A stretch of DNA of 64,000 nucleotides. Origin: Paeniglutamicibacter sulfureus. Its GTDB lineage: Bacteria > Actinomycetota > Actinomycetes > Actinomycetales > Micrococcaceae. Below the pieces are notes generated by a model. It worked only from the letters and a program-made list of their open reading frames with translations, did not search any database and was not told where the DNA came from. Both the position numbers and the translations under genes were made by a program. The stretch is taken from assembly GCF_039535115.1 (NCBI RefSeq), contig NZ_BAAAWO010000001.1, positions 992,001 through 1,056,000 on the forward strand, written 5' to 3'. Position 1 is the stretch's first letter; each line of letters starts with the position of its first letter. Positions 50,339 through 55,589 of this stretch are shown piece after piece.

Positions 50339-50992
50339 ATGCTTGAAACTTGGGGAAATCGCGCTGCTCCGCGCCATCACAACATCGGGTCGCGACCCGT
50401 GACACCGGAATCCGCTAGACCACTGCTTTCGCGACGCTCTTTCGGCATCACCATTGGAGCCTCACTCGTCCTGGGCGCGGGCGGCATCGCTGCATTGGCA
50501 GCCGCATTCACCGCCGCCGGACCGTTGGGCACCACCACCGTACAAACCAGCTTCGGACAGGCGCGGATATCTCGGGCCGAGCGCCAAGCAAGACTGGCAT
50601 CCGGCGCCGCCACCGGAGGCGGCCACTCCGGGCACCAGTCGACAGTCGACGGAACCCGGCAACCGGTCAACATGACATTCGGGGACCATTTGCTTCTCCA
50701 GCTCGAGGTCTTCAATGAAAGTGACGAGGACCAAATGTTCTCGCCGGGGCTGCTGCGCATCCAAGGCAACAGCCAACCGTGGCTCGTCGTCAACCGTTGG
50801 AACGACCTCACCCCCGGTTTGATGGCCCCGGGGTCACAGGTTCGGGCCAATATCAGTTTCCTGGTTCCATCCGATGCCACGGCGTTCACAGCCCTATTCG
50901 ATGACATCGCAAATCCAGGCGGAAACCCCGTAGAACTACCCTTGCCGGCCGTGAACTGGCGTCCCGGATTCCTGGAGGAAGCACATGTCTAG
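50339..50992 (+). CDS. Tat-type exported protein of the oxidase cluster
   Basis: Unrecognised exported protein of 217 residues. It carries an intact twin-arginine motif LLSRRSFGITIG followed by a hydrophobic stretch (ASLVLGAGGIAALAAAF). The mature part is a beta-rich domain (MTFGDHLLLQLEVFNESDED, LMAPGSQVRANISFLVP) without copper ligands. It overlaps the first oxidase gene by 8 bp. The start could lie upstream at TTG 50303, but ATG is preferred. Proposed role: exported partner or chaperone for the two oxidase proteins. Confidence 0.8.
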   Translation: MLETWGNRAAPRHHNIGSRPVTPESARPLLSRRSFGITIGASLVLGAGGIAALAAAFTAAGPLGTTTVQTSFGQARISRAERQARLASGAATGGGHSGHQSTVDGTRQPVNMTFGDHLLLQLEVFNESDEDQMFSPGLLRIQGNSQPWLVVNRWNDLTPGLMAPGSQVRANISFLVPSDATAFTALFDDIANPGGNPVELPLPAVNWRPGFLEEAHV

Positions 50993-52430
50993 CGATAGCG
51001 TGCCCACAAAGACCAACGGCACAGAACCCGCGTCCACAACCGATTCCCACCCGGATGATCCCGGTCTCGATCGGTCCAGTGTATTGAAGCTCGGTGCCGC
51101 AGCGGCCCTGGGAACTGCCGCAGCCATGGCGGCAGTGGCCCGACCGGCCACAGCGGCCCCACCGCGCAGGGCCCGTGCCGCGGTTCCCGTGGCCGTCACC
51201 CCGCTGCCAGGGGTACTGGACCTCTACATCAACGAGGGCTACACAAGGATGGTCGATGATTCCCTGGTCTACCAGCGTGGATTCGGCGACCAGCCAACGG
51301 CCCTTCGGGACGCCAATCCGTCACTGCGCATCGTTCCGAAGATCTTCACCCGTGCCGGACAGGTGGTGGAATCACGGACCTATCCATTGAACGCGGCGCT
51401 TCCTCCCAACGGGACGCCGACACCTGCCGGACCGGACCCCGCGAACCCGGGCCAGTTCTTTATCCGGAGAAACCACTGGGCCAGCTATTTCCCGCAACGC
51501 ACCATCATCGTCGAGACCGGTTCCAAGGTGCGGTTGCGCATTTTCAACCGCCTTGCCGGCACGCACCAGTTCACCGTTGCCCAGGGTGCCCACGGCCGCA
51601 GCGACATCACCACGGGACCGATACCTCCAGGCGGGGAAGCGCGGTTGGACTTCGACGCACCATACGCCGGCACCTACCTCTATTACGATCCAACGAATGC
51701 GCCGGTCCAGCGTGCGCTCGGGCTCTTCGGATCCATTGTCGTGGTGGACCCCGAGGACGCCTGGCGGGTCGCGCCCAACCAGATGGGCTTTGAAAGGCAA
51801 TGGCTGTGGGTCACTCATGCCATTGACACCAAGTGGGCCAACATCGAGGCAGCCGGCGGTACCGTTGACCCAGTGGCAACCCCCGCCGTACCCCGCTACT
51901 TCCTGCTCAACGATCGCAGCGGATATGAGGCCTTGGGCCATTCACCCAACCGGGATATCAATCGACTGGCCCACGAGGAGTCGCTGATCTCCGGCTATCC
52001 GCGACAAGTCGATGTACGCGATTTCGGGGAAGACCTGACTCTGGGCACCATCCGCGGCGGGCAGGTGGTCAGGATGGTCAATGCCGGAATAGCGTTCCAC
52101 CAAATCCACTTCCACGGCAACCATCTGTGGACGGTGCGCCGCAACAACGTCGAATGGCCGCGTGAATTCGGCCACGTGGATGAGGACGGACACGTGGTGC
52201 TGCAACAGTGGGAAGACGTGATCCAGCTCGAACCCATGGATCGGAAAGACTGCATCATCCCCATGAAGCGACCACCAGACGCCACAGACCAGGTCTGGTA
52301 TGCCCGGACCGAAGACTGGAAATATCCCATGCACTGCCATGCCGAGATGTCGCAGACTGCGGCCGGCGGCATGTACCCCGGTGGGCTGGTTGCCCACTGG
52401 GAGCTTAAATCACCGGTGATCGGAGGCTAA
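50985..52430 (+). CDS. Multicopper-oxidase-like protein with only the C-terminal copper motifs
   Basis: Protein of 481 residues with a multicopper oxidase fold. The C-terminal motifs remain: HQIHFHGNHLW (about 370) and PMHCHAEMS (about 448). The N-terminal motifs are lost: the HWHG position reads THQFTV and the WYHPH position reads LYYDPTN. In the second motif the usual third His (HCHxxxH) is Ser. The signal-like N-terminus reads DRSSVLKLGAAAALG, with the twin arginine absent. It needs complementary ligands from elsewhere, probably the next gene. Confidence 0.85.
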   Translation: MSSDSVPTKTNGTEPASTTDSHPDDPGLDRSSVLKLGAAAALGTAAAMAAVARPATAAPPRRARAAVPVAVTPLPGVLDLYINEGYTRMVDDSLVYQRGFGDQPTALRDANPSLRIVPKIFTRAGQVVESRTYPLNAALPPNGTPTPAGPDPANPGQFFIRRNHWASYFPQRTIIVETGSKVRLRIFNRLAGTHQFTVAQGAHGRSDITTGPIPPGGEARLDFDAPYAGTYLYYDPTNAPVQRALGLFGSIVVVDPEDAWRVAPNQMGFERQWLWVTHAIDTKWANIEAAGGTVDPVATPAVPRYFLLNDRSGYEALGHSPNRDINRLAHEESLISGYPRQVDVRDFGEDLTLGTIRGGQVVRMVNAGIAFHQIHFHGNHLWTVRRNNVEWPREFGHVDEDGHVVLQQWEDVIQLEPMDRKDCIIPMKRPPDATDQVWYARTEDWKYPMHCHAEMSQTAAGGMYPGGLVAHWELKSPVIGG

Positions 52431-52434
52431 GACC

Positions 52435-53946
52435 ATGAGAACAACATTTTGGGATGCCATTAGCGCAGCTGCGGGTAAGGTCCGCGATTCCCGCCGGGAC
52501 GACGACGACAAGAAGGGGTCTTCACGCAAGCCACGAGCCACAAAGTCACCCAAGCCCACGCCGACGCCGACACCCAAGTCGACGCGAAAAAGCACTCCAA
52601 AGCCGAAGCCGACCAAGTCCGCGACGCCAAAGCCAACGCCGACCAAATCGGTAACGCCAAAACCAACGCCGACCAAATCCGCAACACCAAAACCGACGCC
52701 GACCAAGGCCTCCACCCCGACGCCAACACGCAGCTCCACGGGGCCAACCTCCACCAGCAAGTCTGCGACGACATCGCCCAGCTCGACGGCGCCGTCGCCA
52801 CGGCCCACGAGCGCCACACCATCCGATGACGATGGCGAAGAAAGGGATTACGACTCCCAAGCCGATTTCGCATCGCACCAGATGCAGCAGGACAATCCGG
52901 AGACGCTTTTTCGCCAGACTCCCCATTTGGAAGTCAACATGGACCTGTCGAGCCGCGACTTGCGTTTTCCCGACGGTGCGGAATTCGAGATGTGGGTCTT
53001 CCACAAGAGCGACTCGGGGCGCGGTTTCCCTGGCCCAACCTTGCGACCCATGGAAAAAAACATCTTCCATGCCACGGTGGAACCCAGCATGGGGCCACAC
53101 ACCATCCACTGGCATGGCATGGAGCCCGACCCCCGAAACGACGGCGTGGGACACACCTCGTTCGAAATCGACGACTCATACACCTATCAGTGGCAGCCCG
53201 AACCGGGGCGTGCACACGACCCGAACTACGGCGCGGCAGGCACCTATTTTTACCATTGCCACGTCAACACCCCGCTACACGCCCAGATGGGGCTGCTGGG
53301 CCCGCTGGTCATCGATCCCATCGTGCTGCCCGAATTCCCGGTTTCCCCGGGAAACCGGCGCGCCTTTGCCGACGGACCCGAATACGACATCGCCACTGAG
53401 TCGCTGATCATGCCGTTCTCGATCGATCCACGGTGGCACGAGATGGGACATGCTGCTGGCCTTTCGGGCGAAGATGTCGGGCTGAACCGTTTTGAACCCA
53501 CCCACTTCTACATCACCGGCGGTCTTTTGGCCCAGCGCAAGGAACGGGAAGAAGAAGTGTGGGCACCGACCCAGCTGCCGATCAATGTGAAGGGAAACGG
53601 GAAGGCGCCAAGCCTGATGCGCTTCTGCGACGGGAACTACCTCCCCAACAGGATCACGTTCCTCCACGAAGACGGAACGCCGGCGCGCATCGCCGAGCTC
53701 ATTGCCCACGATGGCCGGCCCTTCCGGCATACTTCGGCCCCCGGGCAACCGGCAATCCCCACCAGCATGCACCCGGATTCCAGGGCTCGTTTGTTCACCC
53801 ATACCCTTACCATGGGTGCTGCGGAAAGATACGACATGCTTCTGCATCCGCCTGCGGCAGGAAACTACACGTTGAGAATTGACTGGAATGATTGGATCAC
53901 CGGTCAGAGGGTAGGTCGCCGGGAGTTGAAGCTTATCGCCTCCTGA
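52435..53946 (+). CDS. Multicopper-oxidase-like protein with only the N-terminal copper motifs
   Basis: Protein of 503 residues. Residues about 30-130 are a Lys/Thr/Pro linker of KPTPTKSxTP repeats, with no signal peptide. Then a cupredoxin domain has HTIHWHGMEP and GTYFYHCHVNTPLHAQMG, the N-terminal oxidase motifs plus a Cys that could serve a type 1 site. The C-terminal half has none of the C-terminal motifs. It follows the previous gene by 4 bp. Together the two proteins carry the motif set of one complete oxidase. Confidence 0.85.
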   Translation: MRTTFWDAISAAAGKVRDSRRDDDDKKGSSRKPRATKSPKPTPTPTPKSTRKSTPKPKPTKSATPKPTPTKSVTPKPTPTKSATPKPTPTKASTPTPTRSSTGPTSTSKSATTSPSSTAPSPRPTSATPSDDDGEERDYDSQADFASHQMQQDNPETLFRQTPHLEVNMDLSSRDLRFPDGAEFEMWVFHKSDSGRGFPGPTLRPMEKNIFHATVEPSMGPHTIHWHGMEPDPRNDGVGHTSFEIDDSYTYQWQPEPGRAHDPNYGAAGTYFYHCHVNTPLHAQMGLLGPLVIDPIVLPEFPVSPGNRRAFADGPEYDIATESLIMPFSIDPRWHEMGHAAGLSGEDVGLNRFEPTHFYITGGLLAQRKEREEEVWAPTQLPINVKGNGKAPSLMRFCDGNYLPNRITFLHEDGTPARIAELIAHDGRPFRHTSAPGQPAIPTSMHPDSRARLFTHTLTMGAAERYDMLLHPPAAGNYTLRIDWNDWITGQRVGRRELKLIAS

Positions 53947-54896: not shown

Positions 54897-55589
54897 ATGC
54901 TGAACAACGAAGATCTCAAGCCCCTGCTGGAAACCAAAGCCAACGTGTTTGGCTCCGAAGGAGAAAAGATCGGTACCCTCGGTCAGATTTATCTTGACGA
55001 TGGAACCGACCTCCCACACTTCGCTACCGTGAAAACCGGTCTGTTCGGTTCGTCTGAAAACTTTGTGCCGCTGGATGATGCGGAAATCTCCAATGGACAG
55101 CTCTACGTCAGGTTCACCAAGCAATTCGTGAAGGACGCGCCCAACGTCGATCCCATGGGGCATCTGAGTCCCGAGGACGAGGATCGCCTCTACGACTACT
55201 ACTCGCAGGCCGGTCTGGGCGCGAACCGTGGAGTCACTGAACCCGAAACACCAGAGACCCCGAGAGACCAGGACAACCTCGAACCCGTAGGACTGAACCA
55301 AGACACCCCGCAGGGCGCCGAAGAACATGTGCACACCATCGGCCCCACGTCCGGACGTCCCCGAATCCGGAAGTACGTGGTTACCGAGCATCCAGTGGAC
55401 GCATCGGCGTCCGAACAAGCAGGGGCATCCTACGGCCTTTCCGGGGAGCATGGCGCGTACCTCGATGGACCGCAAACGAACGACGTGGAGCGGAACGGAA
55501 ACGAATCACTTTCCGAAGGTGACCGTAGTGCGACGGAAGACGGGCCTGAAATGAAGCGTCCCCGCAGCGGCGAACGGATGGATCCCTGA
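54897..55589 (+). CDS. PRC-barrel protein with acidic tail (230 aa)
   Basis: The N-terminal PRC-barrel (KANVFGSEGEKIGTLGQIYLD to QLYVRFTKQFVKDAPNVDP) is a paralog of the 54140 gene. It continues into an acidic, Pro/Glu-rich, probably disordered tail containing RPRIRKYVVTEHPVD. This resembles PRC/DUF2382 proteins of actinobacteria, but no complete DUF2382 is present. ATG with GGAAAGGAAAA upstream. Confidence 0.82.
   Translation: MLNNEDLKPLLETKANVFGSEGEKIGTLGQIYLDDGTDLPHFATVKTGLFGSSENFVPLDDAEISNGQLYVRFTKQFVKDAPNVDPMGHLSPEDEDRLYDYYSQAGLGANRGVTEPETPETPRDQDNLEPVGLNQDTPQGAEEHVHTIGPTSGRPRIRKYVVTEHPVDASASEQAGASYGLSGEHGAYLDGPQTNDVERNGNESLSEGDRSATEDGPEMKRPRSGERMDP

Follow-up and report, generated by a model that had tools for sequence, protein, structure and literature searches.

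Two adjacent genes of Paeniglutamicibacter sulfureus with complementary halves of a trinuclear copper site, most likely one heteromeric multicopper oxidase

Three co-directional genes, here called A, B and C, lie head to tail at positions 50339 to 53946 of a 64,000-nucleotide stretch of the Paeniglutamicibacter sulfureus genome (the window; contig NZ_BAAAWO010000001.1, positions 992,001 to 1,056,000). The copper motifs of B and C are complementary: each protein has four of the His expected around a trinuclear copper cluster, giving eight in the pair. This arrangement is real and unusual: a proposed heteromeric multicopper oxidase (MCO), most likely with its cluster at the interface of two gene products. 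We further consider it likely that A, B and C form an operon for this one enzyme, with the cluster between B and C and with export probably by the twin-arginine (Tat) route. The genes and their putative copper motifs are as follows.

50339..50992, + strand: gene A, small protein with a twin-arginine (SRRSFG) N-terminus, a His-containing linker and a weakly DUF4352-like domain
50985..52430, + strand: gene B, two-cupredoxin MCO half with copper motifs in its second domain only and a single-Arg leader (LDRSSVLKLGAAAALG)
51561..51578, + strand: THQFTV, at the place of the lost first motif in B domain 1
51678..51698, + strand: LYYDPTN, at the place of the lost second motif in B domain 1
52098..52118, + strand: HQIHFHG in B domain 2, two cluster His and a type-1-like His, the His invariant
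52332..52352, + strand: HCHAEMS in B domain 2, two cluster His and a conserved Cys, with Ser at the place of the second type-1 His
52435..53946, + strand: gene C, leaderless, a low-complexity Lys/Pro/Thr extension followed by a two-cupredoxin MCO half with copper motifs in its first domain only
53098..53118, + strand: HTIHWHG in C domain 1, type-1 His and two cluster His
53254..53289, + strand: HCHVNTPLHAQM in C domain 1, two cluster His, type-1 Cys, His and axial Met

A and B overlap by 8 bases, and C starts 4 bases after B; promoter and terminator scans at the locus stayed at chance level. The Pfam MCO model PF07732 matched B and C above its cut-off (E 3.2e-9 and 4.1e-9, respectively), and an NCBIfam search returned no family above cut-off. 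HHalign aligned B to C with 99.3% probability over 270 columns. Each has the two cupredoxins of a two-domain MCO, four domains in all, and the two are diverged paralogous two-domain MCO units. Among solved structures, C matched best to the two-domain MCO 3g5w, in its first domain (E 5.5e-11). No copper motifs are found in the first domain of B or the second domain of C.

The earlier note on this DNA had presented B and C as a standard three-domain oxidase split in two, with domain-3 motifs kept in B and domain-1 motifs in C. The open reading frames (ORFs) and the quoted motifs are where it placed them, both domain-1 motifs of B are indeed lost, and the pair does supply eight cluster His. The domain assignment did not hold. 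The last B motif is HCHAEMS, not the HCHxxxH of a protein that has kept both domain-3 motifs, and C is not a plain domain-1 protein, since HTIHWHG with HCHVNTPLHxQM combines half a trinuclear site with a complete type-1 site. The complementary motif losses and the match to 3g5w thus argue for two two-domain units, not a three-domain enzyme cut in two. A three-domain laccase has its motifs in domains 1 and 3; here there are two plus two domains, with motifs in the second and third, and we rejected a three-domain laccase in pieces on this layout of the aligned relatives. The idea that B keeps a full type-1 site was also dropped, its second His place being Ser. The span given in the note takes in B and C; A, at its start, belongs to the module as well.

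Relatives of the pair are found both as two genes and as one. In a search of 198 genomes at order level, fused forms were seen in G005 and in the genome of the window, each a single frame of 792–830 residues with the B half first. In the family-level search (295 genomes; E <= 1e-20 for B-like matches), B-like genes occurred in 27 genomes and C-like genes in 28, with 27 in common, so that every family genome with B also has C (27/27), the co-occurrence that the earlier note had proposed to look for. A wider scan covered 84,980 species with one genome each; it used two 8-residue patterns only, thereby missing distant kin, and gave 62 loci, mostly in Micrococcaceae, with a few in Microbacteriaceae, Intrasporangiaceae and Nocardioidaceae and one in an unplaced Actinomycetota metagenome-assembled genome. 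With the window this made 63 loci, of which L202, L203, L204, L205 and L209, broken or fragmentary, were left out. The 58 scored loci comprise 29 fused genes, 26 split pairs and three B-only loci; one of the latter, L175, is a frameshifted fused gene, leaving L164 and L168 as true B-only rows. The fused relatives are four-domain chains of ~790 residues, with cores of 768–811 residues. Of the 26 split pairs, 20 have a 4-base overlap of B with C and five a spacing of +4, with one left unassigned; the prevailing overlap favours equal synthesis of the two proteins. Natural fusions, 27/27 co-occurrence and tight gene coupling together support the co-assembly of B and C that the earlier note had suggested.

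We aligned 61 rows (26 split, 30 fused including L175, 2 B-only and 3 C-only), counting both the window and L148, near-identical rows from one species. The eight cluster His are conserved in 26/26 split pairs and 29/30 fused rows. Also invariant in the split pairs are both HCH Cys and the type-1 His, His and Met of C; in the fused rows the same ligands are invariant except in L175, where the frame is broken. In L123 and L124, the two copies of G225, the axial Met is replaced by Leu. A complete type-1 site calls for His, Cys, His and Met or Leu, and C has His, Cys, His and Met in 26/26 split pairs. B alone has no such site: where its second type-1 His would stand there is Ser in every row with B (26/26 split pairs, 30/30 fused rows and both B-only rows; n = 58), and Thr in the B of L113, a further locus outside these rows. 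The invariant His and Cys of this Ser-replaced site may mark a further and unusual copper site. The Trp of HTIHWHG varies, being His in Terracoccus L190 and Leu in L177.

In the window, B and C are under purifying selection, with pN/pS of 0.12–0.20 for B and 0.14–0.21 for C against three relatives. Together with the recurrence of the same ligand division in 26 split pairs, this argues against chance. These values also bear on decay, the reading that the window pair is what a stop or frameshift has left of a four-domain oxidase. Broken or fragmentary copies do occur in other genomes (L175, L202–L204, L209 and a remnant in G215). However, the same split is present in a second assembly of the species (As4PL, L148), identical over the B core, and in the 26 pairs, with close start/stop coupling in 25, and the low pN/pS is not that of dying genes; decay is thereby largely refuted, and we give it hardly any credence.

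In the heteromeric enzyme that we propose, B would contribute only a second-domain half-site of four His; C would bring the type-1 copper and, as its only half-site, the four His of the first-domain kind. Electrons from the substrate would be taken up at the type-1 copper of C and pass through the Cys of the HCH motif to the cluster at the B–C interface, where O2 would be reduced to water. The folded, copper-loaded complex would probably then leave through Tat, with A, B or both providing the signal. We infer copper binding, interface geometry, electron path and export route from sequence.

In known two-domain MCOs the cluster lies between the second domain of one subunit and the first domain of the next, and the subunits are alike. 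These enzymes, such as 3g5w (a Nitrosomonas blue copper oxidase), 2zwn (a metagenome laccase) and SLAC, have two cupredoxin domains per unit, as B and C do, with half a trinuclear site in each domain and the cluster shared between units, and by its motifs the B–C pair can be likened to this trimer. They differ in that they are described as trimers of one protein that bears both half-sites. Neither B nor C carries both; each of the two proteins has one half-site, as does each half of a fused four-domain chain. For a ring of three units, a further partner would be required. The fused relatives are also comparable to ceruloplasmin, MnxG and factor V/VIII, which have tandem two-domain units in one chain, although ceruloplasmin and MnxG have six domains and the fused relatives four. 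The cluster of ceruloplasmin is between domains 1 and 6; in B–C and the fused relatives it is predicted between domains 2 and 3. NirK has a type-2 copper and no trinuclear cluster, whereas the eight cluster His are all retained in B and C taken together. One source divides MCOs into classes of two, three or six domains, the two-domain class being trimers in which two protomers share each cluster (PMC13151041). In the usage of that paper, the type-1 site of C, in the N-terminal domain, corresponds to a type C two-domain MCO. The scheme of two, three or six domains has no place for a two-gene oxidase whose half-sites are divided, nor for its four-domain fusions.

The order of events was examined in trees. 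In an unrooted tree of 55 rows, 22 of the split pairs grouped in a single clade (SH-aLRT 100), and the other four fell outside it. As an outgroup we used a distant split pair on plasmids of the alphaproteobacterium Indioceanicola profundi, whose B is ~29% and C ~35% identical and in which no ligand is lost (B has HSPHIHG and HCHNEIS, C has HTIHWHG and HCHKNTVLHFEM). On the tree so rooted (57 rows, 628 columns), an ancestral two-gene state takes 3 changes, namely three fusions (L190, a clade of 22 fused genes and a clade of 6), and an ancestral fused state takes 5, by our own count. The opposite history is gene fission: a single chain of four domains would have come first and been divided in the lineage of the window, its two products still functioning as a heterodimer. 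Fused genes and split pairs are about equally frequent (29 vs 26), and a fused gene resides in the window's own genome, as fission would allow. Yet the outgroup pair and the deep branches L200 and L177 are all split, and the change count goes against fission too, a point weakened by the long outgroup branch (1.09) and by some deep forks with SH-aLRT below 80. We regard fission as unlikely. An older two-gene form is favoured by these sequence comparisons, not proven, given the length of the outgroup branch.

The fused relative in the window's genome is at G000:C1:4368324-4370684 (L046 8328-10688) and is 54%/51% identical to B/C; one cell may thus hold both the split and the fused form. A homolog of A lies just upstream of it.

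Outside the window's class we observed pairs in which the C-like gene precedes the B-like one and the half-sites are divided in a similar way: L269 and L270 in G681, where one protein has HTVHWHG or HTIHWHG with YHCHWEDVEHIQ and the other HPFHPH or SPFHPH with HSH in place of HCH. L240 (G569) is probably a third, its B-like protein cut by the contig end. All other C-like loci of the phylum that show motifs, L214 and L240 excepted, presumably belong to nitrite-reductase-type or three-domain MCOs, from their appearance. A Halomarina plasmid has both half-sites in one two-domain chain, the arrangement that we would expect of the ancestral type.

A broader reading, to which we give even odds, is that these loci represent a widespread and unrecognised class of heteromeric MCO: two subfunctionalised two-domain paralogs with half a cluster each, put together in the cytoplasm and Tat-exported along with a partner that carries the signal, ancestrally encoded by two genes, fused at least three times, and supplying the missing step from homotrimer to single-chain enzyme. 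They would offer a natural case of a metal site passing from homo-oligomeric to hetero-oligomeric to single-chain, in which the order of the steps is testable. Half-site proteins are annotated as stand-alone oxidases or hypothetical proteins, for example on the Indioceanicola plasmid, and may perhaps be inactive unless made with their partner. A literature search, with most subscription journals outside its coverage, found nothing relevant on heteromeric, split or four-domain MCOs.

Gene A is the only conserved neighbour of the family genes that was found. In neighbourhood clustering of 65 sources (ORFs of at least 110 residues, clusters present in at least five), it was recovered in 41; the remaining clusters consisted of family members or were artefacts of overlapping frames and the reverse strand. 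None of the neighbours points firmly to a substrate or physiological role. It stands beside 25/26 split pairs, the exception, L166, starting at a contig end. At fused loci it was found in 16/29, on the opposite strand in two of these, and not found in 13/29, of which L198 alone is cut too close to tell. A Tat-type RR motif is present in 40/43 A proteins and a His cluster in the linker in 29/43. A matched DUF4352 below cut-off (E 0.009) and had no Pfam cupredoxin match.

Leaders were judged by hydropathy and motif rather than by a signal-peptide program. By hydropathy, none of the 21 scored split-pair C extensions contains a leader, and five others have only 7–8 residues; the highest 17-residue value was 1.12 (L157), with the others at or below 0.73 and one partly readable. 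Split B proteins mostly have a hydrophobic leader (1.21–1.95) with a single Arg, as in the window. RR leaders are found on the B of L157, L177 and L200, and none on L183 and L197, which lack a leader; L166 is cut.

A is thus a small protein with a Tat-like signal, encoded beside a leaderless copper enzyme, as is MelC1. The leaderless Streptomyces tyrosinase MelC2 is described as copper-loaded and exported with its signal-bearing helper MelC1, on which copper loading depends (PMC2758597). In E. coli HybOC and PaoABC, too, a partner that lacks a leader crosses by Tat while bound to one that has a signal (PMC4273604). The A–B–C pattern resembles both, the enzymes themselves being unrelated. By this analogy we propose A as an export and copper-loading escort, and either A or B might serve as signal-bearing helper for the export of C. 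A could instead be a structural subunit of a heterotrimer. Its place as the only conserved neighbour, at nearly all split pairs and over half of the fused genes, would suit a subunit; the lack of a Pfam cupredoxin match, a DUF4352 match that is only sub-threshold, and the 13 fused loci at which it was not found would not. We therefore doubt the heterotrimer, while keeping it in view, and prefer A as an escort.

The N-terminal part of C has two features of its own.

52435..52839, + strand: N-terminal extension of C, ~135 residues, absent from the aligned fused relatives
52597-52706: 30-base tandem repeat within this extension

Within the clade of 22 split pairs, C extensions range from 87 to 226 residues and are Lys/Pro/Thr-rich or charged and coiled-coil-like, the exceptions being L156 (7 residues) and L158 (partly unreadable). 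The four split pairs outside that clade have 8 residues before the C domain. Our guess is that the extension is a flexible, basic wall anchor or tether.

The B half of a predicted fused structure has a two-domain fold in the model, in keeping with the proposal. Several results weigh against an exported heteromeric enzyme as we have drawn it. The top Foldseek matches of the fused model were ceruloplasmin and factor V/VIII; these were only moderate (TM by query 0.42–0.49, rmsd ~9–18 Å), and the structural alignments barely cover the C half. A model of the two middle domains alone was poor (pLDDT 58.0, pTM 0.60). The location of the enzyme is unproven, because the window B lacks a twin Arg, L183 and L197 are leaderless, and the fused chains mostly start at the domain or within ~60 residues of it with no strongly hydrophobic stretch, L190 with its RR leader excepted. 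Finally, solitary copies exist. Open-frame B genes with no C in the fetched flanks were found in G306, G346 and G359 (L125–L127) and in G249 (L128 4553-5755), as was a broken one in G306 (L146); L164 and L168 are the named records of two solitary-B loci, with the B motifs present. A solitary C in G225 (L123 4606-5688) has neither B nor a clear A beside it. In the family, each genome with a solitary copy has a complete set elsewhere. The earlier note had named homologs active alone as a point against its proposal; a few solitary copies were found, none of them shown to be active alone.

Such copies, and the resemblance of B alone and of C alone to NirK/MCO units, could mean that B and C are separate proteins sharing no cluster, C being a blue-copper electron carrier or a homotrimer of different activity and B a copper-binding or structural relic. 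We consider this improbable: cluster His that neither half would need alone are kept in both halves of 26/26 split pairs, and repeated fusion, co-occurrence and low pN/pS in both genes also speak against it. The shared cluster remains our preferred reading.

Incomplete loci were noted elsewhere. Plasmid pTC1 of Paenarthrobacter aurescens (L245) has A and B and no C in the fetched stretch, its chromosome not being covered by the search; three plasmid records match C along more than 80% of the query, and pTC1 is none of them. G215 (L147), the sole C-only genome of the family, retains a 66-residue C end and a full-length A match with no B match beside them, and looks like the scar of an internal deletion that removed most of B and C. 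Near B, pTC1 has a gene for an Mn/Fe transporter of the Nramp type, as does an Arthrobacter plasmid (L248) near a broken B–C gene, and an Nramp-like ORF, identified by eye, is near the solitary B of L126. The L248 gene (4989-7336) is annotated as two overlapping coding sequences and is probably a fused gene with a frameshift. Downstream of A–B–C in the window, an ORF at 54897-55589 has a PRC-barrel domain.

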